Shown one piece after another: positions 25,471 through 64,000 of a stretch of DNA of 64,000 nt. A model generated the notes under the pieces. The model worked only from the letters and a program-made list of their open reading frames with translations. It was not told the origin of the DNA and made no database searches. Source of the stretch: Clytia hemisphaerica. Taxonomy: Eukaryota; Cnidaria; Hydrozoa; Leptothecata; Clytiidae. The DNA is taken from the NCBI GenBank assembly GCA_902728285.1, contig CACVBU010000349.1, positions 396,384 through 460,383 of the forward strand, read 5' to 3'. Position numbers and translations under genes: made by a program. The first letter of the stretch is position 1; the number at the start of each line of letters is the position of its first letter.

Positions 25471-25685
25471 TAGTGGAGTTCGATTATATTAAAGTTGATT
25501 TCCATCCATCAATCGGTTATCCAGGGTTATCTGTTAGTAATAACAAAAAGATATCCATCAAATGGAGTACTGACTGCTGGATTAAAGTGATTGAATACTC
25601 GCTTGACTCCAACTTTTTGCCCCAAATTGTTGTGCTTCCCCTATACAGTGCTTACTTTTTGTTTTGCTTTAGATCTTCAAAAAAT

Positions 25686-26507
25686 ATGGAAATAGATAGT
25701 TTGCCAATAAATTTCAAAACCAAGTTTGATGAAGGTGGTACATCAACCATCCACAAAATAACTTTAAAACGAAAAGCAACAGCTGTTAAGCTGTTCAAAA
25801 ACCAAGTTATTAAAAGAAAAATATCGCAAATTGCGAAAAAATTAAGGCAGTTGGAACACCCAAATTTGGTAAGATTCATTGGATTTTCTTCCAAACCTTC
25901 TGCACTGGTGTTTGAGTTTTGTCAGGTATCTATTGATGGAAACGAGTTCAACAATTTGGCACAACTCGTCAACTACAAAAATGAAATTCAAGCATTTTGT
26001 CTCAATGAAAGACTTGACTTTATGAGACAAATCTCAGAGGGAATCTCCTATCTGCACAACAAACAGATCATTCATCGTGACATCAAACCAAACAATTTTT
26101 TAGTCCAACAAAGTGATACTGGAGTTGTGGTCAAAGTGTCTGATTTTGACGATGTAGTTGTCTTAAAGACTGCTATAACCTGCAGTACCACCAACTGGCA
26201 AGCTGGAATGACGCTTGCATACACTGCTCCAGAAATATGCTCTGGAGCATCTGCCCACACGTCTTTCGAGACTGACATATACTCATTGGCCGTGTGTTGT
26301 TTTCAAATCTTGTTTAACAAGCCATTTATATGGGAAGGTGTGTTACCCTTCATGAACGACTCACTACTGATCAACGCTCTAGCAGAAAACAAACGACCCG
26401 ATTTTGGCATGATTGAACAGCTATACGTAGCAGACATGAAGAAAATTAAGGAGTTGATTGTAGGATGTTGGTCAACTGACCCCTCGGTTAGACCCAAGAT
26501 TTCAGAG
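25686..26507 (+). CDS. exon 1: protein kinase domain
   Basis: A Ser/Thr- or TKL-like kinase fold of about 280 residues. Residues counted from the 25686 ATG: degenerate Gly-rich loop FDEGGTSTIHK (14-24), beta-3 Lys in TAVKLF (K35), HPNLVRFIG (58-66), catalytic loop HRDIKPNNFLV (130-140), metal-binding DFD (153-155) in place of DFG, APE (181-183), and DIYSLAVCCFQIL in the F helix. The usual C-helix Glu is not obvious (a Gln lies near its place). The HRD Asp and Lys are present, so catalysis is possible. An in-frame upstream ATG at 25473 would add 71 residues of non-kinase sequence that runs through the pyrimidine-rich acceptor; I consider that less likely. Confidence 0.88.
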
Positions 26508-29500
26508 GTTTGTTTTTTTTAATTGGTTTGATTCCATCCACAACATAGTGTCCTAATAGATGGTCCCTCCCCTTGAAAACTGAAAAAATCTCTTTGCCCC
26601 CCCCCCCTCTTTTAGTCTCAGGTTTATAAAAAAAAGCATTATTTTTGCATTTTTGCTTTGGGATTTTTATTCTCGTCATATCTAAAATAAAAGATAAAAT
26701 CCTAAATTCTCCTAAATTTTGAAAAGTCTCCTAAAATCTCCTAAATAATATTTCAAAAATTCAATTTACTCTGATTATTCAATTTTCAAAAAGTAATAAA
26801 TGAAGCACTGGTAGTATGATGTTGAGATACATACATTGCCTTGATCGGTTGTACATCATTTAATGCTATTACAAAATATATCTTTGGAAGTTATGAAAAA
26901 AATATATCTTTGAAAGTTATGAAAATTTTGTAGAATTTTCTCTTCAAAAATCCTGAAATTCATTGAAAAAGTGTGAAAATCTCCTCAAAACTCCTAAATT
27001 TTTTAACCAAAAAATTCAGTTTCTCCAAAAAAAAATAGTTGAAAATTACCTAAAATCTACTAGATTCTCCTAAATTTTCATCGAAACAAAATCGTGGTAA
27101 CCCTGTAATAATATCAATACACTAAAGCTCTTAACAAAGTCTTGTAATAGTCTTAGAGTCTTAAAGTCTTAGGGGAAGAAATTTTGCAGCATTTAATCTC
27201 GCAAAATTGGGTCTGATTATCGAAATTGAATGCTGCAAAATTTCTTCCCTGAAGGAAACTGTGTTTTAACCTTTTTTCTGTTTTGAACTCACATTTTTTA
27301 TTACGGATGGTCAGACTATGTTATAAAAATAACAGAAAACTGGACTTTTTTTCTGATTTTTTCTCCCCCTTTTGATTTCCCCCTAGAATCTTGATAATTA
27401 TTTTCCCCACCCCTTGGCCAATTTGGGGAAAAAATCCCCCCCCCCCCACCTCTGTTTAAAAGGAGGACAAACAACCTCAAAGCAAGTTTTGTTATAAGGG
27501 CTGCTAATCGTTGAAATTATTCTTGCCCATGGGTTACACTGTTTTTCATGAAAAAATTTTGCATTGATGTTTAAATTTTCATCCATTGAAAAAAAAATAA
27601 TGAAGTCATTACTCTTAGGTTCCAAATAAACGGGCCCCCCCGCTTGTTAATTTTTCGAAAATTTTCCAACCCCCCCGGACCTTATTAGGACCCCCCCCCC
27701 CCGTTTATTAATCTCGAAGAATATTTTCAGCTTTCAAAGAGAAGGTCCCTTATTTTGCTTTAAATAGCGTAGTTTTAGCCTATTTTTACCTTATTTTTGG
27801 GTTTCAGAAGTACAATTTCCAACCCCCCGGCAATTAGGTCCCCCCCGTTTATTAAAATCTAGAAAATTTTCCAACCCCCCCGTTTATTCGAACCCCCCCC
27901 CGTTTATTTGGAACCTAAGAGTATATGTTGCAAAAAAGAAAAATACAAAGAAAGAGGTTGGTTGGGATAAACAAACTGGGCTCTATCTTTTATTTTAGGT
28001 AGTTGATGCATTGGGAAGTATTTTTGGAACAGGATCTCGTGTTAAAAAGGTAACTTTGTTCGAAGAGCCAACTCATGTACGTATTTGTATTTGTTTTTAA
28101 AGACCATGAGAAAATAGTCACAGAGTGCTCAAGAAAAATATCGAACAAGTATAGAACTAATCTTATAATGCTACATGATGTTTCATGCTATGCAATTGTC
28201 AGGCAATGTGAAAAATTTCAAGATTTCTGTTTGTTAAAGATTGTTGAGAATAAAAATAAACTAGCTGGGTATGCTATAAAAGTACTTGGATATATTTCTT
28301 TACATATTTCAATAAAAATTTCATCAATTAGGTGTTGCCCAAAAGAATCAAAGTTGACAATAACGCGGTTGCTTTGGAATGGTTGGCATTAAAGAAAGAT
28401 CCCGAGTACATTGAAAAACTTTTTATACATGATTTAATTGGTATGTTTTGTTTAAAAGTGACGTACCAAAGTTTGAGTTTGAAATGTTATGTAACTTTTC
28501 AATATTGGTTAAAGAGACTCTCGGTTGTAAAAATAAATAAAGGGAAAAGCTTGATGATGTGAAACATAAGTAACAAGTAATGAGGAGACTGTTAAAAAGT
28601 TATAGGACTTTGCTAGAATGGATTCAGACCTTTCTTGAGATGTTTTTGTAGAATAGCTGTCATTTAATGAAATTATATTTTTCCTTTTCAACTTCTTGTT
28701 TACCTTTTTTTAGGTTATGGTGTCTTTGCTAAGCGACTGATTACAAAAGGTGAATTCATTGCATCTTACGAAGGAGAAAGGATAACTTGCAAAGAAGGTG
28801 AAAATAGATTGAGCAAGCAAGACGACAACGACAAAAGCTACTTGTACTTTGTATCTCATCGAAAAACTAACTTTTGGTAACTACAATCTCATTTGATATG
28901 TTTTCTCCCAAAAAATGTTGTTTAAAAGGATAGTGTGCTATTCTACTCAACATTATTTTGGAGGGGAGGTCAAGCACTTTCTAACATAGAAAAGTAACTC
29001 TGGAAGGTGAATATTAAGCAAAAGATTGTCTTTAATTTTTTCATTACACTACAACTATCATATTGGGTCAGTGGACTCTGAATAGCAAATTTCTTTGTAA
29101 CATTTTGATTTTCAGACAAGGATAGAAACGGTTACCTTATACTCAACATTATTTTGGGGGAGGGGAAAATTCATTCAAATATAGAAAAGATTCTAGTTTT
29201 TTTTTTTTTCTTGTCCTTTCATTATATTTGGCTGCAAAAATTGTTCGTACTTTCTTTTGTGGCACTACTCTCTTCGATTTTACAAAATGAAATTTGAAAG
29301 TTTACTTTTAGGTTTTATGAAGAAAAAGAAGAATTATTTAGTTTTATTTACATATTTCACAGTATTGATGCGTCAAAAATAGATAGACTTGGCCGGTACA
29401 TAAACGACTCGAAGACACCCAATTGTGCAGTGAAGATAGTTGAAAATAGTCAAAACATCCCATGTGTATCAATTTTCGCCATAAAAGATATACAAGAAGG

Positions 29501-32500
29501 AATGGAAGTTCGTTATAATTATAATGATCGAAATCTCTTCTGGAGAAAGCAGGTATTTGAAATAGATTAACTTGATTTTAGTCTGTCTCTAGGTGATCTC
29601 TACAATCATTGACATTTATATGAGGCGAAGAAATTCCCAACAAAATTTTAAAACCAAAAATGATTTTAAAGTGCTGTAACTTTGGGTGAGTTTTAACTGA
29701 GTTTTAACATTAGAATTAAGACTTAGGAGCTTAGGATATCCGGATCTAAAAACTCGAAAATGGTCCAATAATTGGGTAATTTGGGAAGAATGGTGGGAAC
29801 TTTTTTTTCCCCACAGAAATAACACCAAACCTTATCCCATCTCCTCAAGTTTTGCATGTATAAAAACACTTTGCCTTTGCAGTGGTTGCTTTTACTTTTT
29901 CGTTTTTTAGCCTGCAGGTCCACATCAGTCTTTACTGCCAATGTATATGGAATTGTATATAATATATATATATAGTGAAGATATGTAATATCTGTCATTT
30001 TAGAAAAAGAAAAGTATTGATATATAAATAACTCAAACTGATAAAAACGAAAAAAGTTAAGAATATTTTTGTTAATTGTGTGTATTTACGATTTTTTTTG
30101 GTATTTTTTATTTTTTAATCATTCCGAAACAGAGGGTAATTTAGCAAAAAGTTAAAGGGAATTTAAATAGTGGTATGTGAAAGAAAAACCTAATCCAAAT
30201 GAAGATAGAAGAAAAGTAATAGTGGAGAAACAATGAATTGCAAAAAACTTTTTTGATAATCACACTTCCGTAAGTTCATCAAAATACATACAAAATGGGG
30301 ACAAATACAAAAGCAAACACATCAAATAAATAAAAAAAAAAAAAAAAAAAAAAAATATATATATAGTATATATAGTCTAGAAGTATAAAACCTTCAACTA
30401 CTCACAATGGAAACAATAAATACAAAAACCCACAAAACAAAAAGACAATACAAATACAACAAAAATCTAGAATGAACATTCACAGAAAATCAATCAGGTT
30501 GGAGTAGAATAGGAAAATATGATGACATAGAAATCCGTCAATGTAAAACTAGTGATCTAAAATGACTTTAAGGAAGAAAGTAACTCAATATGAGTTAAGA
30601 TGGAAAGAAGTAACTCAATATGAGTCAAAAAATATTTCAAGAAAACACATTATCTGTTCCTCAGTTTTCGACCTACACAGGATTTCGGCCATTTGTGAAA
30701 ATATCCTCCTATATGATGGAAATAGGGTTGTGTAGGTAGGCCAAGCAGTGTTAATTAGACACCACCACAGATAAAAGATAGTAAAAAGATGTGTTTATTG
30801 AAAGTATAAAACGCGCGCAATAATATAAAATAAACTAAAACGTAACACGGAACCAGCCGAAGAAACTAAAATTACAATGAGAAAAGAAGTATACTTTCTA
30901 CTAGACAAAGTTGCCACACCTTTGACACGTTTCTGCCACAACGTTGAAGAAAGTATACTAGAAGAGAAGGAACTGGGATTGGATTGCCACTATCCAACCC
31001 TGTGGCTCTCACACACATTTTACAGTTCAAAGAATAAGATGGAAAGAGTGGGGAAAGAATGAGAATTTAAAAAATCGGACTATAACCCGGTTCGAAGCCC
31101 CGTACACCGTGACCGCTCACCGCAAGAGCTGGCGAACGAGTGAATCTTGAGAGAGTTGAAATCTTGAAAATTCTGAAAAATGACGAACTATAACCCGTCG
31201 AAGACTGCAATCTAACTTTGCGTTTTCAGCACCTTGACATCGCATTCTTTGTATAAAAACTTTGGCTTTAACTTTCAAGTCCTCGAAAAGTAACGTAGAA
31301 CGAGCAATCCTGAGAAGTTCACCAACAAAAGAAGAATAAAAAATCGATTCTGGCAAGTTGCTATCTTTATGTGGCATTCGGACTATGGAAAAAGGAAATG
31401 CATCCCGTTTATCAAACAACTTATAAATAAATATCCCGTCTTTGATGGTAATATCCAGGTTTAAAAAAGAAGCATGATTACCAGAGTGCTCAATTTTGAG
31501 TTCAAGCTCATCTGGATAGATATCTCTATACACAGACTGAAACAAGTTACCGTCATTGATCGCACACAAATCATCAATGAATCTTTTAGTCGAATGAAAA
31601 TGGCGAGCCTTAACCTTATTTTCCTCAATGATCCTTCTCATATACCTTTGTTCGTATTGGTAGAGGAAAAGATTAGCCCAAAATGGCGCCGGATCGATTC
31701 CCATGGGAATCCCGATCACTTGACACATAACAATATCACCTGCATTGAAAAAACAATTTTTTATCAGATGTTTCATAGCAGTTTTCAAAGAATTCTGTGT
31801 AAAAGACACAGAAGATTTGGGTTTTGTTTTTGACCAATACGCTTTATCATTTTTAGAAATAGCGATAAACTTGCAGTTACCTGCATCAAATACAAAATCA
31901 ATGACCTCTGATAGTTCTTTAATCAGTTTGTCATGAGGAATCTTTGTGTACAATGTACTAAAGTCAAAGGTGGAAATAGATTTGGCGTTTTTCTTTTTAT
32001 TGATTCGGTTGAGTGAATCTAGTACTGGATCACAATTTTGAAGTACCCAAAATTTATTATAATTGCTCAAAAACTTTGCTTTGGTATGGAAATTTTCAAC
32101 TTGTCTGTAAACAAGCTTAAAAACTAGACTGACAGATCTAGAAATCAGTTTGGTGGAACAATGTTTTGAAGCGATAATGAAACGTTTACCAGTAGGAGTC
32201 TTGTGTTTCTTTGGAGTCCAATAGATACATGGAAGATCCAAGTCCTTCTCAGAAACAGCAAGACCAAAACGTTTAGAAAAACGAACATTTTCATTCACCA
32301 TTTCTGCTTTATATATATATAGTGAAGATATGTAATATCTGTCATTTTAGAAAAAGAAAAGTATTGATATATAAATAACTCAAACTGATAAAAACGAAAA
32401 AAGTTAAGAATATTTTTGTTAATTGTGTGTATTTACGATTTTTTTGGTATTTTTTATTTTTTAATCATTCCGAAACAGAGGGTAATTTAGCAAAAAGTTA

Positions 32501-47500: not shown

Positions 47501-50500
47501 TCGGAGGTCCCGTCCGCACATACCCCTCATTCGCCAACCCTAGTACTCCCCCCCGGGGTTTCTTCTCCTGTCAGTCGACCTGGAGTTTGTTGTCATCTTG
47601 ATATGATGACTAGGGTTAATGACAGCCAGCCTGTCCCAAGCGGGGGAAAAGTCATTGGGCCCTTGTGAAGATTTGCTACCTTTTCGATGTAACATCGTCT
47701 TTCTAAGAGAAAGATAGCTCGGTCATTCTTTCTTGTTTGTAGGTTTGACTGGAGAAAACTTTTTAATTTTTAAAGCTTTTCATTCTTTTGCTGTATGGCC
47801 ATTCTAATTTTACTTTTGACATAAATAATGCACTGCTCAATTTTGTCATTGAATTTCTTCTCGAGTTTGAACGGTTTAGTAGTGTCTTATTTTAGCTTGA
47901 AATTTCCTACTCACATAGCTCTCCTTTTTTTCCTTTTATATTTTTTCTCAAATCTTTGATTTTCCTATAGTCTAGTATCCTTAGCGATATAATTTTCGTG
48001 CCTTGCGGGTGGGGGGATTTTTGTCTTGTTAGTAGTATATGTTATGGTCGTACGTGTAATGTATTTTTTCGAATTATAAAGAAAAAAAATAGAAATTTCA
48101 AAGATTTTTGTCATCACAACCTACCAGTATAAGGTGGTAAAGACCCTCAGCAGGCAACTAAAAGTGAAACTTAGACTGAGAAAATTTTCGGGAGAAGAGA
48201 TTTGAGACGAGATTTGATTTTTCCTGACTCCCTACAAGAAGTTCTTCAGATTTACTTGAAATCAGCTATCCAATGGATTTGAATAGAAATTTATTAACTT
48301 TCAAAAATTTGCTCGCCTGCACAGAATTGACGATTTTTAGGGGCTAAGATTTTGCTTTAGTAGCCTACCTTTGAATCGATGTATCTAGATCTCTTAGAAA
48401 AAAAATACTATTTAAAATAATGTAAAATGGAAAAACTGGACAAAACAGCCGTTCCTGGCCAATGTATCTCTAATCTTAATGTTGAATGTTATATTGCATA
48501 ACCCTATTTCCTTTATCCCTCATTTTTCGCAAAGGTTCAAAGTGTCAAAAATTCCAACAAAGATATTTCAAGATTAGAAAAACATTTCTGGTTTGGTACT
48601 TGTAGTATGTTTAATTTATATATTCAGGTTCCGAAGAAGAAGAAGACGAAGAAGAAGAAGAAGAAAAAGAAAGAGAAGAAAATCCAGAAGTACGTGAAAA
48701 TGAAGAAGAAAAAGAACAAGAACAAGAAGGAGAAAAAGAAAAATCTGAAGTTGAAACAACTGAAAAGATCTACGTGAAGTGCTCTCGCCACAGGAATAAG
48801 AAAAGGGTTTGGGACAAGAAGTATCATTGCCTGTTTTGCCCGAAGAAGGGAGCAAAACTTGTTGGACACTGGCAGAGAAGGCACCGGTCAGAGCCTGACG
48901 TTGCCCAACTGGTTTCCCTAAGCTATAAAAAAAGTGACAGTCTGGAAACACGAAAGTATAAAAAGAAAGCAAGGCGCCGCATTATTGACAAACTGCGACG
49001 AATAGGGAATTACAGGCACAACATGAAGGTTCTCACAGAATTGAGGGGGGAACTGATCGTGAAGAAACGCCCGATCAAAGCGACCAGCTTTAAACAATTC
49101 CTTCCTTCCGAATTTTGCTTGGAGTTTTACTACCGCCGTGATCTCCGTCGACACATGGAAAACTGTCCTTGCCGAAGTGACAGGAGAGTTGAGGGACGTG
49201 TCCAGAGCAAGGCAGTCCTTCTGCTACCAGTGAGAAAGGAAGTTTCAAATGACTTGAACAAGATCATTTCTAAAATGAGGGGAGACGAGGTGGGAAACAA
49301 AGTTAAGATGGATCCAACAATAATTAAATATGGTAACATGCTTTGCCGCAAGCACCTCAACAATGATGATCAAGAATATCATATTAGCAACAAACTACGC
49401 GAACTGGGAAGATTCCTCGTCGCAATGCAAAGAAACCCAGAATTGCGCCAAAATGATCTGCAGGGAATGATTCGACCTCAAAACTTTCCAACCGTTATCG
49501 AAAGCATTCATCAATTGTGTGGCTGGAATGAAGAACAGAGAACGGTTGAAACACCTTCATTAGGTAAGAAAAGTGATTTTCAAATATTATCAAAATGCAT
49601 TTTTTATATTTATCAATTTATTTTCAGTTGGTAAAAAAAGGATGTGACCTAATGTCCTCGATAAATACACATGGTGTCCACTTTGTCAGGAATGTCAGGA
49701 AAGTCAGGAAATGTCAGGAAATTCAAAAAAATGGGGAAATTGTCAGGAAAATGTCAGTAAATAATAGGATTTTCCTGAAATGTCAGGAAAAGTCAGGATT
49801 TTTGATCGATTTCTAGAAAAATGGCTTGTAAAAGTCCACAACAGTGTCAAATTCCAAAAATTTCGTGCTCGCTTCGCTCGCATTATATTTTTCTCAAGTA
49901 CAAGGGACAGTAACAACTTAGAAAAATGTCAGCAAATTTAGCTCAAAATTGTTAGGAAAATGAAAGGAAAAGCATAGTTAAACTTTGAGTGGACACCCTG
50001 ATACAGTAAAGCTTTAACCGTTACTAATAAAATCAAACTTTTACCAAAATAGTCATAAAAATCTACCACAATTTACATATTGGGCAGGTACAAAAATCGT
50101 TTGGCAACACTTTTAACTTTCCCAAAAAAAACCAGGCACTTTTACAGTACAAGAATTTTTTGAAAATATTTAACTTGATATGAAAAGATGCAGATTTAGA
50201 TAAAGCTAATAATTGATATAAATTTTGTTTCTGAATTTCGATATCTATATCTTAATAGCAGTGTTTTGTAAGTCTTTCTGTTTGTCACTTTCGTTTTCGA
50301 TTTCAAACTTTTTGGCAAGAAGTCATTGCAGTGTTAATCTTTCGCAAAAAATTTAACTTAATTTCCTGTGTAGTAGAGGTTTTAATGGTCGAATTGTTTA
50401 AATTGAGAACAGTCGGTCAAACTTTGCAAAAAATGTCCCCCAGCATTAGTAGATTCGATTTAGAGGTGGTGTCAAAAATGTTGTGCCTCTAATGATGCCT

Positions 50501-53500
50501 TAGCAACGGTTTTTGCAGTTTCTAAGCTAAAATTCTAACCTACAAAAAAGTCAAACTCCAAAACCATTTACTCTCGGGTACCTAATAGCCGGGGGGTTTG
50601 GAATAAGCAAGGGGTTGGAAAAAATCTCAAAATTTAATATGCGGGGGGGGGGTTGGAATTAAAATGTCCTGGGTGGAAAATGTTCGAAAAGGAGGCTGAT
50701 ACAGCAGAATTAGGGCAAAAGAGGGAATTTTCAAAAACATTTTTCCCCAAAATCAATAAGCGGGGGGGGGGTTGGAATAAGAATGTCCTGGGTGGAAAAT
50801 TTTCGAAAAATTAATTTGCGGGGCAAAGTTAGCAGCTGATTGACCTCTAAAAAGCATCTTTTTTGCTCTTTTTTGGGGTCAATTAGAAGCAAACTTTGTG
50901 TAATATCTTTTTATCGAATGAATATTTTTGAATTTTTTTTTCTCAGTGAATACACACTAGGATATAAGTTTCAAAATGATAATCATAACTTAATTTTGCA
51001 AGAAGTTTTTTTTTCATGTTAATCATCTTTTTATCACAAATTATTCCACTCATTAATATCTTTCCGACGTTACCAAATTTAAAAGGAATGAAGCAATTCT
51101 TGAAAAAGTTACAGGGAAAACAAAAAAAGAGTGGACACTTATCGTGAACAGACTTTAAACTTCACTACTTTTTTTGGTGTCATAAATCATTGATTTTCTC
51201 AGGTTTGGCAGGGTTTGGTTGTGAAATCAACCATGTCGATCAAAAGTCCTCTATATCATTTTCCGAGAGCATTCGAATGATATAACATGATACAGGGCTC
51301 TTCCTGAGAATTGAGAAAATTGGCAGCTCTGTGACATCAAAATGTTGAGATAAATAAAAGTTGCAACTGCTCCGAATTTCAATCTACTCTAAGCGGTAGA
51401 GTACTCTGTGCAAAAAAATCACTAAGTTTTCACAAAATAACCAATTTTTTTCGTAACATTAAGTAATTTGACGAAAACTAAATTGACAAGCTATGTTTAA
51501 TGATTTTATACCTTCCTATTTCTCTCCTATAGGAATCAAATTGGGGCAACTTCTAAACAAAGTTTGCTACCTCCTCAAAGGCGAGGCTATCATTGAAGGA
51601 AATTCGGCTTTAAAGCAAGACGCGGACGATTTTGCAACTCTCGTTTCAATGAAATGGAATGATGAAATAGCGAAAGTTTCACGTATTGCAAAGAAATGGA
51701 ATAAGCCACAGCTGCTGCCTTTAACCGAGGATTTAAAGAAGCTGAAAAATCACCTCCTCGACATCCGCCAGGAGTCGTTTGATGCGCTGGCCCGCGACAA
51801 CTCGGATACAAAAGCTTGGCGAAACCTGGCCACTGCAACCCTGACAGCTATCATTCTACTTAACAGAAGACGAAGTGGGGAAGCTGCAAAACTTAAAACT
51901 GCCAATTTCGAGGAAGCACTAAAAAATCAAAAAGTAAAAGTTCATCCAGATATAGAAAAATCCCTATCTCCTTTTGAACTCGAGTTGTGCAAGATATTTA
52001 AGCGTCTGGAAATCCGAGGAAAATTTGGTCGAAAGGTTCCAGTCCTCCTAAGCAAAAAGTTAGCCGAATCAATGGATATTTTAGCTAATACTCGAAAATC
52101 AGTTGGAATATTTGAGGATAACAGATACTTTTTTGCTGTACCCCACTCACTACATTATCTCCGTGGCAGCGATTCTATACGCAAGCATGTTAGATTGTGT
52201 GAATTATCTTGCCCCGTGGCGATTACGTCAACAAAGTTGCGAAAGCATGTTGCGACTCTAAGTCAAGTCTTGAATCTTCAAGAAAGCGAGGTCGAAATGC
52301 TTGCGTCATTTCTAGGGCACGACGTCAAAATCCACAAAGAGTACTACCGTCTTCAGGAATCTACCCTACAAGTTGCAAAGTGTGGCAAAATCTTAATGTT
52401 GTTGGAGCAGGGAAAGATGGCGGATTTCGCAGGAAAATCATTGAGTGAAATTGATTTGGATATCAATGGTAGGTGAATTAATGTTTATAAACGTCCAAAA
52501 ATTTAAATTCAAATTTTACGAGGAATCAATGGGCTCTGACCATAGTGAGTTTTCGTAATTTGGCATGCACTAAATGCTAATTTGTGCATATTATATAGAC
52601 CGTTAAAGTATATGATGTTATGCATTTTCTGTTAGACCAATCATTTGTGAATCCAGGTGAATCTAAAAATATAGAAATCGCAAGGAAAAAGTTTCATGAA
52701 AAAGAAATGGAAGACTTTGGCGAAGAATAGTATTTTAAGAAAAATGTTGGCTTAAATGTCTACTAAGGAACTAAAAATAGATTTTCGAAAAATATTTGTT
52801 ATCGCTTCTTTGTTTCAAAATCTTCAGAAGAGTGCTTTTTGAAAAATTTTCAATAGTGCATTTTTCTGTGAAAAAAAATCCAATTAAAAAAGTATGAAGG
52901 GTACGCATTTTTTGTAAAAAGTATATGATTAACTTCGTACCACACTTATATATCAGTTAAACTTAATATTTCTAAAGCAGTTTGTTCCTACACATGTCAA
53001 AAATTTTTCAATTTCACATAAGGTTTTTTATTCAAATTAGAAAATTGATTCTTCACTATGATGATCAGAGCCCTTAAGGAAAAAACTTATTTCGTGTGCA
53101 TCTCATTTGATTTTTTCAATTTTAAATGGCAATTTTTCACAGTATTGTTAGGCTTCGGAAACTGATTCTAAAAATTTATCTCAAAGCTGGTGAAATTTGT
53201 TTAATTGCTGTAACATTTATCTCGATTGATACTACTGTTTGCCATGGTATATCCTTCCGTTGAAAGATTTACCCAAAGAAATTGGTTAATGACTTTTTTT
53301 CTTCTAGAAATTCACTCTGACTTGGAGGATGGTGACGACGACGATGAGGTCGAGAGCGATAGTGAGGACGAGGAGAACGAAGAGGAAGAGGAAGAGGAAG
53401 AGAAAGAGAAAGAGAAAGAAAAAGACGAAAACCTACCAAAATCTATAAAAGGTAACCATTAAGATTTCCATAACATAAAAAAAATAGGCAAAATACGGTT

Positions 53501-56500: not shown

Positions 56501-58794
56501 GTTTTAGAGTTAATGTTTACCTTTTGGGAATTTAAATTGGTTTAAATGTGTAATTTCATAGCAATGGAATCTGTTTGAAAACGAGGACAACAATAAATTT
56601 ATGCATCTCGAGAAAAGTGTATTGTTCCAGTGTTGACCAGTTTTTAAATATCCTCGGTTTGAAGGTTAAAGTGAGTGTGTTAAATTGGTCAATATTATTA
56701 GGAGTTCGATTGTTCATCCAGTGCTGACCAGTTTTTTAATATCCTCGGTTTAAAGGTTGAAGCGAGTGTGTTAAATTGGTCAATATTATTAGGAGTTCAA
56801 TTGTTCCAGTGCTGACCAGTTTTTAAATATCCTCGGTTTGAAGGTTGAAGCGAGTGTGTTAAATTGGTCAATATTATTAGGAGTTCGATTGTTCATCCAG
56901 TGCTGACCAGTTTTTTAATATCCTCGGTTTAAAGGTTGAAGCGAGTGTGTTAAATTGGTCAATATTATTAGGAGTTCAATTGTTCCAGTGCTGACCAGTT
57001 TTTAAATATCCTCGGTTTGAAGGTTGAAGCGAGTGTGTTAAATTGGTCAATATTATTAGGAGTTCAATTGTTCCAGTGCTGACCAGTTTTTTAATATCCT
57101 CGGTTTAAAGGTTGAAGCGAGTGTGTTAAATTGGTCAATATTATTAGGAGTTCAATTGTTCCAGTGCTGACCAGTTTTTAAATATCCTCGGTTTGAAGGT
57201 TGAAGCGAGTGTGTTAAATTGGTCAATATTATTAGGAGTTCGATTGTTCCAGTGCTGTCCAGTTTTTAAATATCCTCGGTTTGAAGGTTGAAGCGAGTGT
57301 GTTAAATTGGTCAATATTATTAGGAGTTCGATTGTTCCATTGCTGTCCAGTTTTTAAATATCCTCGGTTTGAAGGTTGAAGCGAGTGTGTTAAATTGGTC
57401 AATATTATTAGGAGTTCGATTGTTCCAGTGCTGTCCAGTTTTTAAATATCCTCGGTTTGAAGGTTGAAGCGAGTGTGTTAAATTGGTCAATATTATTAGG
57501 AGTTCAATTGTTCCAGTACTGACCAGGTTTTAAATATCCTCGGTTTGAAGGTTGAAGCGAGTGTGTTAAATTGGTCAATATTATTAGGAGTTCAATTGTT
57601 CCAGTACTGACCAGGTTTTAAATATCCTCGGTTGAAGGTTGAAGCGAGTGTGTTAAATTGGTCAATATTATTAGGAGTTCAATTGTTCCAGTACTGACCA
57701 GGTTTTAGATATCCTCGGTTTGAAGGTTGAAGCGAGTGTGTTAAATTGGTCAATATTATTAGGAGTTCAATTTGTTTCAGTGCTGACCAGTTTTTAAATA
57801 TCCTCGGTTTGAAGGTTAAAGCGTGTTAAATTGGTCAATATTATTATTGTTATTATTATTTAATCGCACGGATGCAGTCCCGGCACGCCAAATATTAAAT
57901 ATATACTACACAATTTTTGCACGAAGGCAGTCTCGGCACCCCAAATACACGTTTTTTTTTAAGAAACTAGTTTTACCAAGCAGCCTCAATGTTTCTTAAG
58001 AAATCGGCCTTTTGAGCCTTAAATGTCTCTTACGTGTTTCTAAACTTTTTGACATAATCAGCCATAGTCAGTTTTGATTGGAAGGTTCTTAAAAAAAAAC
58101 GAATTAAAAAATGTTATTTTCTCATTCTCAGCCTCGGCATGTCCCTTAGATGTTTCCTAGTTTTTAGGCATTCTGAGCCTCATGTTTCTTAAAAGTGTGT
58201 TTCTTAAAAAAAAAAAACGTGTATTAGATATGTTAAATAAAATAACTTTTGTCAAAAATCTAGAAGGAACACAAAAGTTCAGAATCACTGGAACTATATG
58301 AGAGCGAAGAAGAAAGACTATCTTTGCTCTATGGAGTTCTGCTGCCGCGGAGGCACAGGAGAACTGAACTCAAGAGGGCAAAGTTAATTTTTCTTCTTAC
58401 CCAAGTTGTCGTGATGGCAAGGGACTCGTTTCGTTTTTCAGGCATGAAACGCCGATTTATGGAATTTTAATTTTAAATAACCTTTGCCTAAAATGATCTT
58501 GAAATTACACTTGTATTTCTATTTTTTATAGCTCGCAGGCAGTGGTCAAAGGAGCAACAAAGTGTGATGAATGAAGATTTTGACTCCTGCTTTAAAGCAC
58601 TCAAACCCCCTGGGAAAAAAGAATGCGACGATGTTATGGAGAAACACTTTCCGTTGTTCGCCTCAAGAGAGTGGCTTGATTTGAAATACTATGTTCATAA
58701 TAAGATTAAGAACCCTGCGAAAAAGGCAAAGACACTGGCACAAAGGGCGGCAAGAAATGTTACAAAAAAGACAAAAAAAAAGGCAGTGAAGTAA
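25686..58794 (+). CDS. kinase - SET - zinc finger - tyrosine recombinase fusion gene (22-exon model)
   Basis: One phase-consistent gene of about 1,477 codons. Exons: 25686-26507 (start ATG chosen after a possible acceptor at 25672), 27999-28076 (or 28049), 28332-28440, 28714-28876, 29363-29552, 35510-35581, 35964-35994, 36492-36523, 36801-36893, 37055-37102, 37373-37432, 37635-37670, 37803-37919, 38161-38208, 38450-38494, 38876-38923, 39235-39337, 48628-49563, 51533-52468, 53308-53451, 54188-54247, 58532-58794. All 21 introns are GT-AG and phase-compatible. The kinase's last helix spans exon 1/2 (RPKISE|VVDAL), the SET domain spans exons 3-5, and the recombinase spans exons 18-19. From memory, unnamed fish and cnidarian proteins share the SET to C-terminus part; the kinase addition is the less expected feature. 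Alternative: two adjacent genes wrongly joined across the 6-kb intron 29553-35509. Confidence 0.7.
26508..27998 (+). other. intron 1 with element 27611-27922
   Basis: Starts GTTTGT, ends TTTTAG. Contains poly-C runs (26599-26608, 27438-27448) and an inverted-repeat element. No additional exon seen. Confidence 0.6.
27611..27922. mobile_element. C/G-run MITE with ACTCTTAGGTTCCAAATAAAC ends
   Basis: The left end ACTCTTAGGTTCCAAATAAA is mirrored by GTTTATTTGGAACCTAAGAGT ending about 27922. The interior repeats CCCCCCCGTTTATTA and TTTTCCAACCCCCC in several copies. Related motifs occur at 16065-16256 and 50580-50825. Confidence 0.7.
27999..28440 (+). CDS. exons 2-3: kinase-to-SET linker
   Basis: Exon 2 (27999-28076; alternative donor at 28050) completes the kinase C-terminal helix (VVDALGSIFGTGSRVKK). 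Exon 3 (28332-28440) reads VLPKRIKVDNNAVALEWLAL and ends in HDLIG, where the SET domain begins; the phase-1 donor GTATGT joins in frame to exon 4 (HDLIG|YGVFAK). Confidence 0.7.
28714..29552 (+). CDS. exons 4-5: KMT5A-like SET methyltransferase domain
   Basis: Exon 4 (28714-28876) carries the GxG SAM-binding turn and first strands (GYGVFAKRLITKGEFIASYE). Exon 5 (29363-29552) joins in phase 2 to give FCIDASKIDRLGRYINDSK, then TPNC, then IFAIKDIQEGMEVRYNYND, ending FWRKQ. The C-[IV]-D-A, GR-IN-SK--NC and Y-Y-D order matches the SETD8/KMT5A histone H4 lysine-20 methyltransferase group rather than the SUV39 or SET2 groups; no pre-SET or post-SET cysteines are seen. The usual NHS is NDS. The likely role is lysine methylation of chromatin or another protein; substrate unknown. 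Confidence 0.88.
29963..30355. repeat. 393-bp direct repeat, copy 1
   Basis: Matches 32310-32702 almost base for base (differences: one T in a T-run near 30090, AT versus AA near 30260, and the start of the A-run). It begins with (TA)n then GTGAAGATATGTAATATC and ends in about 22 A. Copy 1 is flanked by TATATATA on both sides. The two copies bracket the truncated Penelope-like ORF at 31117-32301, so they may be pseudo-LTRs or the shared 3' end of two elements. Confidence 0.9.
30356..31116 (-). mobile_element. 3' region of the truncated Penelope-like element, with GC-rich cassette C
   Basis: Minus-strand head at 31080-31115 (CTTCGAACCGGGTT). A GTATACTTTCTTCAACG/AGTATACTTC inverted pair lies at about 30885-30960. 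No coding capacity. Confidence 0.45.
31117..32301 (-). pseudogene. Penelope-like reverse transcriptase, 5'-truncated
   Basis: A 394-codon frame for a Penelope-like retroelement reverse transcriptase. Recognisable motifs: YWTPKKHKTPTGKRFI, FDFSTLYTKIPHDKL (first catalytic Asp), IGIPMGIDPAPFWANLFLY, RFIDDLCAIND (catalytic DD) and ASFLNLDITI. The frame has no internal stop but starts abruptly beside the 393-bp repeat at 32310 and lacks about 320 N-terminal residues present in its neighbour at 33083-35287. No GIY-YIG endonuclease is visible after the RT. It is a partial copy of a different subfamily from the neighbour. Confidence 0.88.
32310..32702. repeat. 393-bp direct repeat, copy 2
   Basis: Near-identical to 29963-30355, ends in about 22 A at 32681-32702. 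It abuts the truncation point of the ORF at 31117-32301. Confidence 0.9.
32703..33060 (-). mobile_element. 3' region of the longer Penelope-like element, with GC-rich cassette D
   Basis: Minus-strand head at 32935-32968 (CGGCACGCCGAACCGGG), about 115 bp after the ORF stop. Farther 3' are a region near 32770-32800 (GGCGACTGAGTGTGGGCCC) in the place of the ACTCTAGAGT block of copies A and B, and the T-rich junction with the 393-bp repeat. Confidence 0.5.
33083..35287 (-). CDS. Penelope-like reverse transcriptase, 734 codons
   Basis: An intact long frame. N-terminal part (about 1-330) contains CECVNSEFCDPFHQHIITGD, then GPNYREPKRVNF, then FVIVTIDKASKNFALICKKF. RT core: MYWIPKMHKNPIGCRFI (about 370-390), FDFATLYTTLPHDLL (about 452), IGIPMGIDPAPFWANLFLY (about 536), RFIDDLCALND (about 581), ASFLDLDITV (about 616). 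The order and the FLDLDIT motif fit Penelope-like elements, not LINE or LTR enzymes. No GIY-YIG nuclease is seen at either end. The first residues (MSKLVIIIIII) are encoded by an (ATT)n microsatellite, so the true start may be elsewhere or missing. Opposite orientation to the host gene. Confidence 0.9.
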   Translation of the reverse strand: MSKLVIIIIIINLFVNAGQVLYTKLYHLQNDIIDSIRVALNRLKKSTLKKIASEIISRGPLVSLDSFSEQHYLYILDIIETLIYIPLPSKAKKVAPKHICNVFFDNKAIELIHLPSILNQPDILELLPEPLTTKENRPVVTYSLHKTIRNKILNYQDAVNSIFIDDEVSFTLDSDRCECVNSEFCDPFHQHIITGDLRIVENSKLRKLLTKGPNYREPKRVNFKTALENIITSLDECIDTLEQKTKFKARAFKFWRDTIISKVEIKIRKLKKKTKIHDTKPILKNPEVLAYLETLQKRFVIVTIDKASKNFALICKKFYVSRLLREISGNNTYQPSNLDLNSILENSENLCKTFGLSLSDKMKTLPIMYWIPKMHKNPIGCRFIIASKSCSTKPLSRAVSMVFKVLYKHVEQFHHKSRFFSSFNKFWVVQNSLPVIGHLNRINAKKKAKRISTFDFATLYTTLPHDLLIEILTKIINFVFDLGCRNKLGFSNTSAYWTTKGKDDRFFTSTSLSECVSFLIKNCFFKVGNSILKQCIGIPMGIDPAPFWANLFLYHFESEYVKGLISASSPSAYNFHSVGRFIDDLCALNDRDEFHNCYKQIYPKELDLKVEHHGNHASFLDLDITVENNIFRYKLFDKRDAFPFFIVRMPHADSNIPSCIFYGSVFSEILRIARSTLMFEDLTPRVTELFIRMRNQGASNAFLKKQVVKCFSRFPDCFMKYGKTVEEFLHIFKL
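35258..35278. repeat. (AAT)n microsatellite at the Penelope-like 5' end
   Basis: About seven AAT units; on the minus strand they encode the Ile run near the start of the 734-codon frame. Confidence 0.85.
35510..36523 (+). CDS. exons 6-8: post-SET linker
   Basis: 35510-35581 (EEFQTFRNPMKKEDLPVNGK, 24 codons, phase 0/0), 35964-35994 (TERCSSKDIK, ends phase 1) and 36492-36523 (DFDVSDESVEY). Joining exons 7 and 8 makes a new Asp codon (G|AT). The intron after exon 6 holds a partial copy (35620-35745) of the inverted-repeat element at 3560-3742. Confidence 0.6.
36801..37919 (+). CDS. exons 9-13: basic NLS and acidic linker
   Basis: Five phase-0 exons: 36801-36893 (KHPKKKRKD, a classical monopartite NLS), 37055-37102, 37373-37432 (RKHSSSRKASNRNAATSNQQ), 37635-37670 and 37803-37919 (39 codons, Asp/Asn-rich, made of GATGATGAT and GACGTTAAT repeats). 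The region is predicted disordered and would target the protein to the nucleus. Confidence 0.65.
38161..39337 (+). CDS. exons 14-17: linker with second acidic tract
   Basis: 38161-38208 (PLVNIKVLHKQGFFDP), 38450-38494, 38876-38923 (SIPCDSALGGDFPSFE) and 39235-39337 (MTDQEEEEEEEDGGGENNQV, then VDDDDENDKDFVPEH). The last ends in phase 1 at CATA|GTATGA and joins exon 18 (GTTCCG) to make two Ser codons, bridging the 9.3-kb intron that carries the Copia element. Confidence 0.62.
39634..40088 (-). pseudogene. Cys-rich ORF fragment interrupted by Copia
   Basis: The minus frame contains YRCKSKFFCEGKC, ECSVCHNILHRHHC, a zinc-ribbon-like arrangement, preceded (across a TAG near 39930) by KCEQFLKRIEELEKSVPCLE. 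Skipping the Copia insertion and one copy of its target duplication, the frame continues upstream to 45286-45352 without a stop. It looks like a repeat-type gene fragment, not part of the host gene. Family not recognised. Confidence 0.4.
40084..40088. other. Copia target-site duplication, left copy
   Basis: TAAAG here and again at 45286-45290. Confidence 0.9.
40089..40323 (+). repeat. Copia 5' LTR
   Basis: 235 bp, TGTTAATC...TTTAACA, standard TG...CA ends. No difference from the 3' LTR found by eye. Confidence 0.96.
40326..40337 (+). other. primer-binding site (initiator Met tRNA 3' end)
   Basis: TGGTAGCAGAGG, two bases after the 5' LTR, is complementary to the CCA-tailed 3' end of animal initiator-methionine tRNA over 12 bases. 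Confidence 0.8.
40353..44738 (+). CDS. Copia Gag-Pol polyprotein, 1461 aa
   Basis: All retrotransposition activities in one frame. Gag occupies about the first 270 residues, with an RGG-rich stretch before a CCHC zinc knuckle (CMVCGSVFHWARDC, 274-287). Protease: VLDSGCT (catalytic Asp 328). Integrase: zinc-binding HRQFSH (from 483) to CESCKIC, then D549 (MDLKEW), D607 (LVDNGGEFD) and E643 (NGLVERH), giving D-D-35-E. Reverse transcriptase: D1071 (SIDVRAAFLQG) and the HVDDFFWGG box (1155-1157). RNase H: HSDASYAN (about 1309), AAEMLA and YIDSQS. PR-IN-RT-RH order defines Ty1/Copia. No frameshift between gag and pol. Confidence 0.97.
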   Translation: MANKNDIKAPPALKEDVPYENWKKEITIWQLFTSLEKKKQGLAILLSLEGKAREAALELEVDELNKDDGVSKVLAQLDKLYLKDKLQLSFQAYDSFRKFKRPNDMPIADFVVEFERLYNKAKAYEMILPDGILAYEFLNNANISDSHEKLIRATMTELSYNSMKDQLRKVFGDLSLSVSSNKSKDVGAVNNQVKFESRDEMTFETTSRDEEAEEVYYGNYRDRSNRGGRSRPNRGRFNFRGRGGRGQHGGAERRHQDGKPRRNPSGPDGAPSTCMVCGSVFHWARDCPDSYDNLMKHKNKSKEDDEIALFSDTLKQFVGETLGTAVLDSGCTKNVCGKTWLGCYLETLDKNQLSTVKEFKSSTSFKFGNGDSVESLKKVKVPAYIGGKNVFIETDVIDGDLPLLLSKDAMKKAEMNIDFIHDNVTIFGQTQKLMFTSSGHYCIPLGYCTNDLNSNRKSECDSLALFGSTNSVEEKKGMMQKLHRQFSHAPYHRIKSLLKDAGVDDQENIDVLKKVCESCKICQVYKKTPQRPVVGLSMAHYLNETVAMDLKEWKEGSSKTWFLHLVDHATRYSASSVIKSKKKEVIVGQLFDIWIKIFGYPNKFLVDNGGEFDNQEFQDFCENLNIKIKTTAAESPWSNGLVERHNGIIGENVTKIVRDVDCELRIALSWAVSAKNALHNIHGFSPNQLVFGRNPNFPSVLTDKLPALEGKTTSEVVRDNLNAMHSARKAFVASEASEKIRRALRHNVGSSVDVKYVTQDSVYYKRKNDPKWKGPGTVIGQDGQQVLVKHGSVYVRVHPCRLMPEKSEVQYNPPRNQEDVPNPDAPSTPRQLPQGVDSDSDDDVTQEITPTNNVEQQTEENGIARSVAGQMQDSVVQKNVTLPKPKQKVKYLPRDDTNWKTVEVISRAGKANGKYKHWLNIKNEDNTVECIDWKNSVQEWHPNESSDEEANGINGAIIEDSQEAETVFYSVNGMDVDPVLLNESKEKELANWRRNNVYQEVPDAGQKCVSTRWVFTEKFIDGKKSIKSRLVARGFEEDSSFQVNSPTCSKEALRLASTLMMTNGWKCNSIDVRAAFLQGKQIDRDVFIKPPPEVENKNIWKLNVCVYGLSDAPRAWYLRVKEVLASLGARCCKHDAGLFYSHKNGSLQGIIVIHVDDFFWGGTMDFVQKVIQPFKQTFEIGTEETGSFKYLGLNITQTKNGIQIEQTRYCQSIKPIPVSKERKTQRNLPLGSGETKQLRMLVGQMNWAATQTRPDILFDCCELASKMKNATVADILDANKVLKKLQNDVMIKLPPLKDINHLKFVVHSDASYANLNDGGSQGGYIILLSDDISKKLSPIAWQAKRIKRVVKSTLAAEMLALVEAAESCYWLQSILNEVLGTEGCRIECYIDSQSLYNAANSTTSLSDKRLRVDVAIIREMLQNNEISKLVWVPSKSQLADCLTKKGANTSSVVNVLTTNQL
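45037..45049 (+). other. Copia polypurine tract
   Basis: AAAGAAAGGGGAG-type purine run directly before the 3' LTR; primes plus-strand DNA synthesis. Confidence 0.8.
45051..45285 (+). repeat. Copia 3' LTR
   Basis: 235 bp, reads identical to 40089-40323. Confidence 0.96.
45286..46470. other. intronic, no gene seen
   Basis: The right target duplication (45286-45290) and 67 bp of the disrupted Cys-rich frame, then AT-rich sequence with poly-T runs. Confidence 0.5.
46478..47090 (+). pseudogene. decayed non-LTR retrotransposon RT, C-terminal region
   Basis: Frame 1 gives KVNKGIGFINRLPKHVPRKS, LLTLYKSYIRP; a one-base loss then shifts to LDYGDIIYDHPGNSTSVYRL. Farther on, scattered frames give ITVK/SEIT-type remnants and LRNYLPARLAAPGNL-like sequence. 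This is the well-known segment after the RT palm in jockey/CR1/L2-type elements. Multiple stops and shifts show it is dead. Confidence 0.75.
47091..48627. other. intronic with one GC-ended MITE
   Basis: Apart from 47204-47558 there is no coding signal before the exon acceptor at 48627. Confidence 0.5.
47204..47558. mobile_element. MITE with CCCCGGGGGGGG ends
   Basis: The left part (CCCCGGGGGGGGGGCA, GATGGGTATGTGCGGACGG) is mirrored by CCGTCCGCACATACCCCTCA and CCCCCCCGGGG. The interior has at least four copies of GTCTCTCTAAGGGTCGG-like repeats. Confidence 0.75.
48628..49563 (+). CDS. exon 18: acidic tract, zinc finger, recombinase N-terminal region
   Basis: 312 codons. Begins with a Glu-rich tract (SEEEEDEEEEEEKEREENPE), then a C2H2-like finger YHCLFCPKKGAKLVGHWQRR followed by H (C-x2-C-x9-H-x4-H), then SEPDVAQLVSL. 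A second, degenerate zinc site is FCLEFYYRRDLRRHMENC. The rest is helical (ISKMRGDEVGNKVKMDPTII, LRELGRFLVAMQR) and resembles the core-binding half of a tyrosine recombinase. Ends in phase 1 (PSLG|). Zinc finger plus core-binding domain would be the DNA-binding half. Confidence 0.8.
49564..51532 (+). other. intron 18 with a MITE and G-run elements
   Basis: GTAAGA donor, CCTATAG acceptor at 51532. 49672-50000 is a MITE; 50580-50825 has repeated GCGGGGGGGGGTTGGAATAAG segments. Confidence 0.6.
49672..50000. mobile_element. MITE with GGTGTCCACTTTGT ends
   Basis: ATGGTGTCCACTTTGTCAGG is mirrored by AACTTTGAGTGGACACCCTG. Internal AAATGTCAGGAAA repeats. Confidence 0.6.
51533..52468 (+). CDS. exon 19: tyrosine recombinase/integrase-like catalytic domain
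   Basis: 312 codons that complete the domain begun in exon 18. Active-site landmarks: first Arg in LNRRRSGEAAKLK (about 51864-51880), second Arg in STKLRKHVAT (about 52228-52256), HGR-type His in FLGHDVKIHKEYYRL (LGH near 52313) and the Tyr nucleophile within YY (about 52342-52347). This is the R...xxLR.H...LGH...Y order of phage integrase, XerD and Crypton enzymes. The His that usually precedes the second Arg by three residues is Thr here. It would cut and rejoin DNA through a 3' phosphotyrosine if active. The C-terminal part is LQVAKCGKILMLLEQGKMAD, then GKSLSEIDLDIN. Confidence 0.85.
52657..52730 (+). CDS. possible alternative terminal exon
   Basis: After AATCCAG, GTGAATCT... continues exon 19 in phase for 24 codons (GESKNIEIARKKFHEKEMED, FGEE) to a TAG at 52728-52730. 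If used, it would end the protein right after the recombinase domain and omit the acidic tail and C-terminal domain. Confidence 0.4.
53308..54247 (+). CDS. exons 20-21: acidic and lysine-rich tail
   Basis: 53308-53451 encodes EIHSDLEDGDDDDEVESDSE followed by a Glu/Lys run; 54188-54247 encodes VAKKKKAISKKKESKKTPVK. Both are phase 1/1 and fit between exons 19 and 22. Alternating acidic and basic blocks resemble those of nuclear chromatin proteins. Confidence 0.7.
55652..57845. repeat. 88-bp satellite, about 22 units
   Basis: The unit contains GTTGAAGCGAGTGTGTTAAA, TTGGTCAATATTATTAGGAG, TTCAATTGTTCCAGTGCTGA, CCAGTTTTTAAATATCCTCG, GTTTGAAG. Variants: TTCGATTGTTCATCCAG (longer) and GGTTTAAAG. Some adjacent units alternate long and short forms. 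A MITE splits it at 56367-56620. Confidence 0.95.
56367..56620. mobile_element. MITE with ~70-bp inverted ends inside the satellite
   Basis: ACACTCTTCTCGAGATGCAT (then AAGTTTATTGTTGTCCTCG and onward) is mirrored by ATGCATCTCGAGAAAAGTGT. The satellite motif TTCAATTGTTCC is split as TTCAAT and ATTGTTCC, suggesting a two-base AT duplication. Confidence 0.88.
57944..58225. mobile_element. MITE with AATACACG-T9-AAGAAAC ends
   Basis: AATACACGTTTTTTTTTTAAG at 57944 is mirrored by TTAAAAAAAAAAAACGTGTATT at about 58205-58225. The interior repeats TTTCTTAA and CCTCA(G/T) words. Confidence 0.75.
58532..58794 (+). CDS. exon 22: C-terminal basic domain and stop
   Basis: 87 codons and TAA. ARRQWSKEQQSVMNEDF, ALKPPGKKECDDVMEKHFPL, ASREWLDLKYYVHNKIKNPA, then a Lys-rich tail. 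Spaced Trp residues and PGK-EC resemble a SANT/Myb-like fold; from memory, a similar tail closes related recombinase proteins in other animals. Confidence 0.75.
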
Positions 58795-63900: not shown

Positions 63901-64000
63901 AAGAGTGAAAAATAATTTTTCTCAATAGAAAATGCTTGAAAACGATTCTAAACACCATCCAAAACCTTGAAAGTGATTTCACTTAGCAGAAATCGCTTGA
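60950..64000. repeat. ~62-bp satellite, about 49 units, continues past the window
   Basis: The unit contains GAAAACGCTTGAAATCGATT, CCAAACACCATCCGAAAGC, TTGAAAAATGATTTTGTTCA, GTA. Several unit types occur (GTTCAGTA, GTTGAGTA or ATTTCACTTAGCA). The order of types repeats in blocks (for example 62880-63010 and 63490-63620), indicating higher-order duplication. Minus-strand ORFs rich in FKAFSIEKK/VLNRF are by-products. Confidence 0.95.

Follow-up and report, generated by a model that had tools for sequence, protein, structure and literature searches.

A candidate three-domain gene in Clytia hemisphaerica joining a protein kinase, a KMT5A-like SET domain and a tyrosine recombinase

A stretch of 64,000 nt from the genome of the hydrozoan Clytia hemisphaerica (417 Mb, 951 contigs), which is locus C248, is referred to here as the window and supplies the position numbers used below. 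It appears to contain one chromosomal gene encoding a protein of about 1468 aa, in which a protein kinase, a KMT5A-type SET domain, an acidic linker, zinc-finger-like motifs, a tyrosine recombinase and a C-terminal segment follow one another. The gene would belong to a dispersed family of formerly mobile origin, and we put the probability of this reading at about 0.7.

A fresh reading of the window DNA yielded 22 exons between 25686 and 58794, with the ATG at 25686 and the stop codon ending at 58794 (Table 1). GT-AG borders and matching phase are present at all 21 junctions, the frame is open over 4407 nt, and the spliced protein has 1468 aa. The original prediction, made from the letters of the DNA, had proposed 22 exons with 21 phase-consistent GT-AG junctions, and the same exons were reached in this independent rereading. 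The domain completions that it ascribed to splicing also hold, namely the last kinase helix (RPKISE/VVDALGSIF), two junctions of the SET domain (IG/YGVF and NF/CIDA) and one of the recombinase (PSL/GIKLG). Directly 5' of exons 2 and 3 there is an in-frame stop with no ATG in the gap, and by eye neither exon contains an ATG in frame. Since exons 2 and 3 have no start of their own, translation of the SET part has to begin in a first exon further upstream, and the kinase exon is the candidate in view.

The same arrangement recurs in the Clytia genome. A tblastn comparison of the window exons with 194,638 bases of selected own-genome DNA revealed two divergent paralogs. At locus C99, matches to the kinase (40%), exon 3 (51%), exon 4 (67%), exon 5 (71%), exon 18 (38%) and exon 19 (47-57%) lie in window order on the plus strand over 16.4 kb. 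At locus C628b, matches to the kinase (37%), SET (about 50%) and recombinase (26-28%) follow the same order on the plus strand over 20 kb, and its zinc-finger part was matched by fish and thrips queries at 24-29%. Both loci display the kinase exon end together with counterparts of the short exon 2 and of exons 3 and 4; C99 appears to have one further small exon between exons 2 and 3. An accidental neighbourhood of kinase and recombinase is ruled out by these two loci. In a tree of ten kinase sequences the window, C281, C99 and C628b grouped together with a support of 0.966, and the SET clade had a support of 0.995. The architectural part of the three-enzyme reading in the original prediction is thereby borne out: one gene, with an order and strand repeated in two divergent paralogs. 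The kinase tree pairs C99 with C628b (0.994) and the SET tree pairs the window with C99 (0.741); support for this conflict is too weak to claim module exchange. The kinase and SET parts of C628b are close to those of C99 (56% and 59%), and its recombinase (C628b:1721821-1723865) is far from everything compared (26-33%), for which a module swap or fast change is possible.

Among the five kinase-clade loci with long matches, three (C248, C99 and C628b) carry SET and recombinase. The other two are C860, with kinase and SET and no recombinase match, and C281, with the kinase exon only; the count omits the fragments C70, C527, C822 and C209. Near C70 neither SET nor recombinase was detected; for C527, C822 and C209 the surroundings were checked in genome lists only. 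Kinase and recombinase parts on consistently separate loci had been named beforehand as evidence that would tell against a fusion, and this comparison, run inside the genome, mostly favours one. C860 is a near copy of the C99 kinase and SET (92-94% at the DNA level) with an internal kinase deletion. C281 consists of the kinase exon and its flanks (window 25536-26899, 86.7%), with 28.6 kb downstream examined, and C70 of part of the kinase exon, with 11.5 kb examined to the contig end. SET exons without a nearby kinase match occur at C875 and C663:141476. Locus C443 encodes stretches of the public Clytia protein P0121 at 100% identity (252, 64 and 23 residues) and 99.4% identity (337 residues). 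Upstream of the annotated P0121 start it holds SET exons at 301069-301221 (43% to zebrafish P0126) and at about 301626 (by eye, perhaps degenerate), and P0121 is probably incomplete at its start, where these SET exons are missing. The C443 contig yielded no kinase of the clade; its only kinase match, 160 kb distant, is of a general kind. Kinase-bearing and kinase-free forms of the gene are thus both present in the genome.

Tyrosine recombinases act by breaking and rejoining DNA via a tyrosine-DNA bond, with the catalytic set R-K-(H)xxR-H-Y. The corresponding residues of the window protein are R1115, K1165, T1235, R1238, H1264 and Y1273 (numbering counted from motif positions), and structure prediction for a Clytia paralog and for window exon 19 gave folds of the tyrosine recombinase/topoisomerase-IB type. 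Pfam at an E of 0.01 made no recombinase call on the spliced window protein. PF00589 was matched in three of eight relatives scanned (2e-7 to 1.1e-6), all three picked because that label was already listed for them, and the other five were unmatched. Exon 19 as a query retrieved 304 proteins, the named ones among the best 120 being mostly from fish, together with molluscs, echinoderms, aphid, frog and one bacterial metagenome record. A full-length query, which scored the 7989 candidates sharing most words on residues 735-1312, retrieved 43 proteins, 822-1927 aa long. Lengths of about 552-807 aa fall outside both searches, and an annotated shorter product of the window locus is possible among them. 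In the 43 relatives the conserved positions are nearly invariant (Arg in 42, beta-Lys in 40, Thr for the box II His in 41, Arg in 42, His in 41 and Tyr in 40). In P0125 the first Arg is replaced by His, so that its recombinase may be dead; in P0163 Arg stands for the His and Ala for the Tyr, and P0161 and P0162 have gaps at catalytic positions. Because nearly all relatives keep these residues intact, selection for catalysis is the simplest reading of the alignment.

Pfam identified SET in nine of the 43 relatives, a kinase in one and BRCT in one, and phmmer matched the window SET to eight of them (163 proteins compared). Fish P0125 has an N-terminal kinase, not SET, and its recombinase is 76% identical to that of the SET-bearing zebrafish P0126. 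By eye, Nothobranchius furzeri P0122 starts like the second half of the P0125 kinase, and the fish kinase-recombinase form may occur in two genera. The BRCT-bearing relative is P0128 of the scallop Pecten maximus. The N-terminal modules comprise SET (fish, echinoderms, Clytia), an unrelated kinase (fish), BRCT (scallop), and kinase plus SET (one Clytia subtype), a pattern that points to an animal recombinase family with nearly invariant catalytic residues and exchangeable N-terminal modules. The SET-recombinase relatives mentioned in the original prediction are thus present in fish, echinoderms and Clytia, and kinase and SET were seen together only in the one Clytia subtype. The best 120 of 1092 matches to residues 1-445 were kinases without a SET label, a weak negative since known SET-recombinases are also missing there. 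A single kinase capture common to Clytia and fish is unsupported, the P0125 kinase falling outside the Clytia clade.

Within the spliced protein, Pfam placed SET at residues 328-436 (8.8e-18), and KMT5A, which methylates histone H4 Lys20, is the closest solved SET structure (PDB 5teg and others, 4.5e-18), as the original prediction had it. The window SET is 32% identical to KMT5A and 35-39% identical to P0126; the P0127 SET is nearer KMT5A (45-46%) than the window (30-33%). The pre-SET extension of exon 3 is clear in P0126, P0140, P0127, P0143 and P0142, and is absent or only partial in P0137, P0151 and the fragment P0134. The SET tree placed KMT5A among the SET-recombinases with weak support (0.673); SET may have had one origin in all of these proteins, or more than one.

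The kinase was called at residues 15-277 (Pkinase, 7.5e-33), a match that covers PF00069 positions 8-259 of 263 and ends within exon 2. The closest solved kinases are TAK1, best at 2.8e-18, and then the RAF kinases. Hallmark motifs of protein kinases are the VAIK Lys, the HRD Asp, the DFG Asp, the helix-C Glu and the glycine loop; K35, D132 and D153 are kept in the window protein. A search of the genome with the kinase gave at least 79 matches; with the C99 kinase as query, C99, C860, C628b, C281 and C248 were at 41% or above, followed by pieces at C70 and C527 and then by C513 at 31%. Comparison of the window and C281 kinases over 274 codons gave a nonsynonymous divergence (dN) of 0.045 and a synonymous divergence (dS) of 0.18, a ratio of 0.247, and comparison with C70 gave ratios of 0.29 and 0.33 (83 and 152 codons). 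Between the loci carrying all three domains, the proportion of synonymous differences (pS) was 0.74-0.87 and that of nonsynonymous differences (pN) 0.18-0.45, for pieces comprising the kinase of the three loci and exons 5, 18 and 19 of the window against C99.

The acidic linker, residues 445-728, is 32% Asp/Glu. Splice acceptors of exons 6-17 score 9.2, against 9.0 for the whole model and a background of 5.1, and their donors 6.6, against 6.7 and 4.3, in a comparison biased by the picking of these sites by eye. An annotated segment of the paralog P0121 corresponds to part of exons 16-17 (SIPCDSALAGDFPSIEL; 46%, E 8e-5) and is joined there to the recombinase.

Several observations weigh against an intact, functional three-domain gene. 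Exons 6-15 have no homologue match in the sequences compared, and the model there follows splice logic alone; a chance splice chain is ruled out for the domain exons, whose order the paralogs repeat, but is still possible for exons 6-15. In the kinase, DFD replaces DFG and the helix-C Glu position is not conserved, both differences from its nearest solved relatives, the TAK1/RAF-like kinases, and the glycine loop is poor, being better in C99 and C628b. The SET domain has Ile-Asn-Asp at 395-397, that is, Asn-Asp where KMT5A has Asn-His; the KMT5A Asn-His-Ser is a cofactor-site motif, and because the motif differs we call the window SET KMT5A-like rather than KMT5A. Asn-Asp is found in six of eight aligned SET relatives and Asn-His in P0137 and P0151. 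In addition to this motif, the window SET differs from KMT5A/SETD8, its nearest solved relative, in its own pre-SET extension and its fusion to a recombinase. In the recombinase, the box II His is Thr, as it is family-wide (41/43), and the region holding the catalytic His and Tyr was modelled at low confidence in both folds. The second zinc-finger-like motif lacks one Cys (C317 to S), and R236 is replaced by G; among six proteins compared, both changes were seen only in that of the window. The C99 kinase frame stops after PW at 21214, with the remainder in another frame, and its recombinase frame is broken near 36505, so that this copy looks decayed. The C628b recombinase possibly belongs to a separate recombinase lineage. 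There are also partial copies in which the other domains are missing (C281, C70, C860, C125 and C628a), and the C281 and C70 kinases compared with each other gave a dN/dS of 0.684 (152 codons), suggesting that these kinase-only copies may be under weak or relaxed constraint.

From the architecture given by splice logic and by the paralogs, the fold and the active-site residues, we infer a possible activity, substrates, nuclear site and coupling. The recombinase would bind and rejoin DNA via a covalent tyrosine-DNA intermediate, the attached SET enzyme would modify a lysine, either of chromatin close by or of a partner, and the kinase would act on the same neighbourhood or on its own protein, licensing or timing the reaction. 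The N-terminal SET, the acidic linker and the zinc-finger-like motifs suggest work on chromatin, the lysine-rich stretch of exon 21 is a possible nuclear localisation signal, and the role of the kinase would most simply be that of a regulator. The gene would descend from a mobile recombinase and would now be part of a dispersed, duplicating gene family, not a compact transposon. A catalytically active three-enzyme recombinase, with phosphorylation control over its chromatin marking and DNA rearrangement, within an animal-wide family swapping its N-terminal enzyme, is put forward only tentatively.

Some alternatives overlap with this explanation in confidence, because the three-domain architecture is compatible with decay, with mobility and with lost cutting. 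A still-mobile, large Crypton- or Starship-like element that captured SET and kinase and moves as a unit of at least 33 kb is compatible with a single gene but unlikely. Its intact catalytic residues, the 67 exon-level recombinase matches in the genome and the existence of broken and partial copies are what such an element would offer, yet the nearest long recombinase match is 63% over 253 residues, a 79% match spans just 73, the DNA that C443, C125 and C628a have in common is only partial and takes in introns, and the gene has 22 exons with other elements in its introns. Among the dispersed and partial copies in the genome, no element ends, empty site or recent full copy was found. The original prediction had suggested looking for further copies with flanking repeats; the paralogs C99 and C628b and the partial copies were recovered, and element ends were not. 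It is improbable that the window holds a recently dead family member whose frame is still unbroken: R236G and C317S, the poor glycine loop, the decayed state of C99 and the Copia insertion in intron 17 would fit such a history, but the open 4407 nt with 21 usable junctions, the kinase exon ratio of 0.247 and the kept catalytic residues of the recombinase do not.

Comparably improbable, on the model of DUF3504 proteins, is a domesticated regulator whose recombinase domain binds DNA without cutting it and anchors SET and kinase. This is a known fate of Crypton recombinases, according to the part of the source available (PMC3212892), and four of the 43 relatives (P0125, P0163, P0161 and P0162) lack or are gapped at catalytic residues; however, the same part of that source describes DUF3504 proteins as having lost most of the catalytic tetrad, whereas here each position is kept in at least 40 of 43. 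The least probable alternative, and a very doubtful one, is that of two adjoining genes: a kinase gene on its own and, downstream of it, a SET-recombinase gene whose separate first exon went unseen. Kinase exons do occur without SET or recombinase at C281 and C70 over the distances given above, fish and echinoderm SET-recombinases begin at SET, and read-through of the exon 2 donor soon meets a stop. Nevertheless, each of exons 2 and 3 is directly preceded by a stop and lacks a start, the kinase-SET exon pattern is repeated at C99 and C628b, and the kinase profile extends into exon 2.

To our knowledge, the animal tyrosine recombinases described so far come chiefly from transposons and from domesticated domains that have lost their active site. 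The nearest analogue in plan appears to be the primate SETMAR (Metnase), which, in the partial accounts available, also joins a SET methyltransferase and a DNA-rearranging enzyme, a mariner transposase, in one gene. There the transposase is inactive, whereas the window gene has a tyrosine recombinase with intact active-site residues, a KMT5A-like SET, an extra kinase and relatives in several phyla. Fungal Starship captains carry DUF3435. Starship transposons, in similarly partial accounts, are large units built around a tyrosine recombinase; they differ in that no cargo element or ends are shown at the window locus. The nearest recombinase setting appears to be that of Cryptons, which with the DUF3504 genes (KCTD1, ZMYM2-4, QRICH1) represent animal tyrosine recombinases and a source of host genes, the animal Cryptons being without a C-terminal domain (available part of PMC3212892). 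Neither 'SET domain' nor 'kinase' occurs in the main text of PMC3212892, and no DUF3504 Pfam match was found in the window protein (E to 0.01), the 43 relatives (0.001) or eight relatives (1). The part available of PMC9406493 describes Cryptons as simple elements with a single recombinase frame, a plan from which the window gene departs, its 22 exons being spread across 33 kb. Retrotransposons that have captured cytosine methyltransferases (PMC5890265) likewise join mobile-element proteins to a chromatin-modifying enzyme, but this is a DNA methyltransferase in retroelements, with no kinase or tyrosine recombinase in the part of the source available. In titles and abstract openings, mostly outside subscription papers and preprints, no literature was found on SET-tyrosine recombinase or kinase-SET-recombinase proteins, and 'tyrosine recombinase' with 'KMT5A' gave no match, again mostly outside such papers and preprints. 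If the reading is true, chromatin marking and DNA rearrangement would be naturally linked in a widespread animal family that keeps its active site and carries histone-type methyltransferases or kinases. It thus becomes testable, in systems such as an experimentally tractable jellyfish and zebrafish, whether active recombinases guided by chromatin exist in some animals.

Table 1. Exons of the candidate gene and other elements lying in its introns (window positions).
Feature	Position	Strand	Support
Exon 1: ATG and protein kinase domain (K35, HRD 130-132, DFD 153-155)	25686..26507	+	Pfam; paralogous kinase exons at C281, C99, C628b, C860
Exon 2: VVDALGSIFGTGSRVKK, where the final kinase helix ends	27999..28049	+	Small exons VVSSLEEIIRK (C99) and IVGRLDTLLRK (C628b), by eye
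Exon 3: pre-SET extension, common to several fish/echinoderm SET-recombinases	28332..28440	+	C99 22235-22345, 51%
Exon 4: first half of SET domain	28714..28876	+	Pfam; solved-structure match; paralog match
Exon 5: second half of SET domain (RYINDS, YNYND, FWR)	29363..29552	+	Pfam; solved-structure match; paralog match
Exons 6-17: twelve short acidic-linker exons	35510..39337	+	Exons 6-15 splice logic only; 16-17 partly matched in P0121
Exon 18: acidic stretch, pair of zinc-finger-like motifs, beginning of the core-binding part of the recombinase	48628..49563	+	C99 35245-36030; C628b 1721821-1722306
Exon 19: tyrosine recombinase catalytic domain	51533..52468	+	Catalytic residues; predicted fold
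Exon 20: acidic tail segment	53308..53451	+	Gene model
Exon 21: lysine-rich segment	54188..54247	+	Gene model
Exon 22: C-terminal segment (RRQWSKEQ...) and stop	58532..58794	+	Fish P0125 and P0141 end alike (by eye)
Two reverse-transcriptase frames in intron 5, not part of the gene	31117-32346, 33083-35398	-	RVT_1 just below cut-off
Copia-type long terminal repeat (LTR) retrotransposon in intron 17, not part of the gene	40089..45285	+	LTRs identical 235/235; duplication TAAAG

At C99:35047-36507 a single intronless frame holds the counterparts of exons 18 and 19. C443, C125 and C628a are interrupted near residue 252 of exon 19, a point at which the window is continuous. These exon 18/19 structures point to intron gain or loss within the recombinase family.

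The Copia element contains a stop-to-stop frame of 1468 residues (40332-44738), and its insertion appears to be recent. The reverse-transcriptase frames of intron 5 resemble Penelope-like elements. A scan of IMG/VR with one query (P0001), in which the window was considered as a piece of virus, gave no pattern match. Large tandem arrays of 45-bp and 62-bp units occupy 4657-6671 and 60950-64000, and a fragment of an ISXO2-like transposase lies on the minus strand at 7525-7857 (PF12762, 1.4e-7). A segment of about 260 bp with inverted ends (56363-56623) is embedded in a tandem array of 88-91 bp units (55660-57846), and C443:303893-304133 is similar to it, with matches in both directions.
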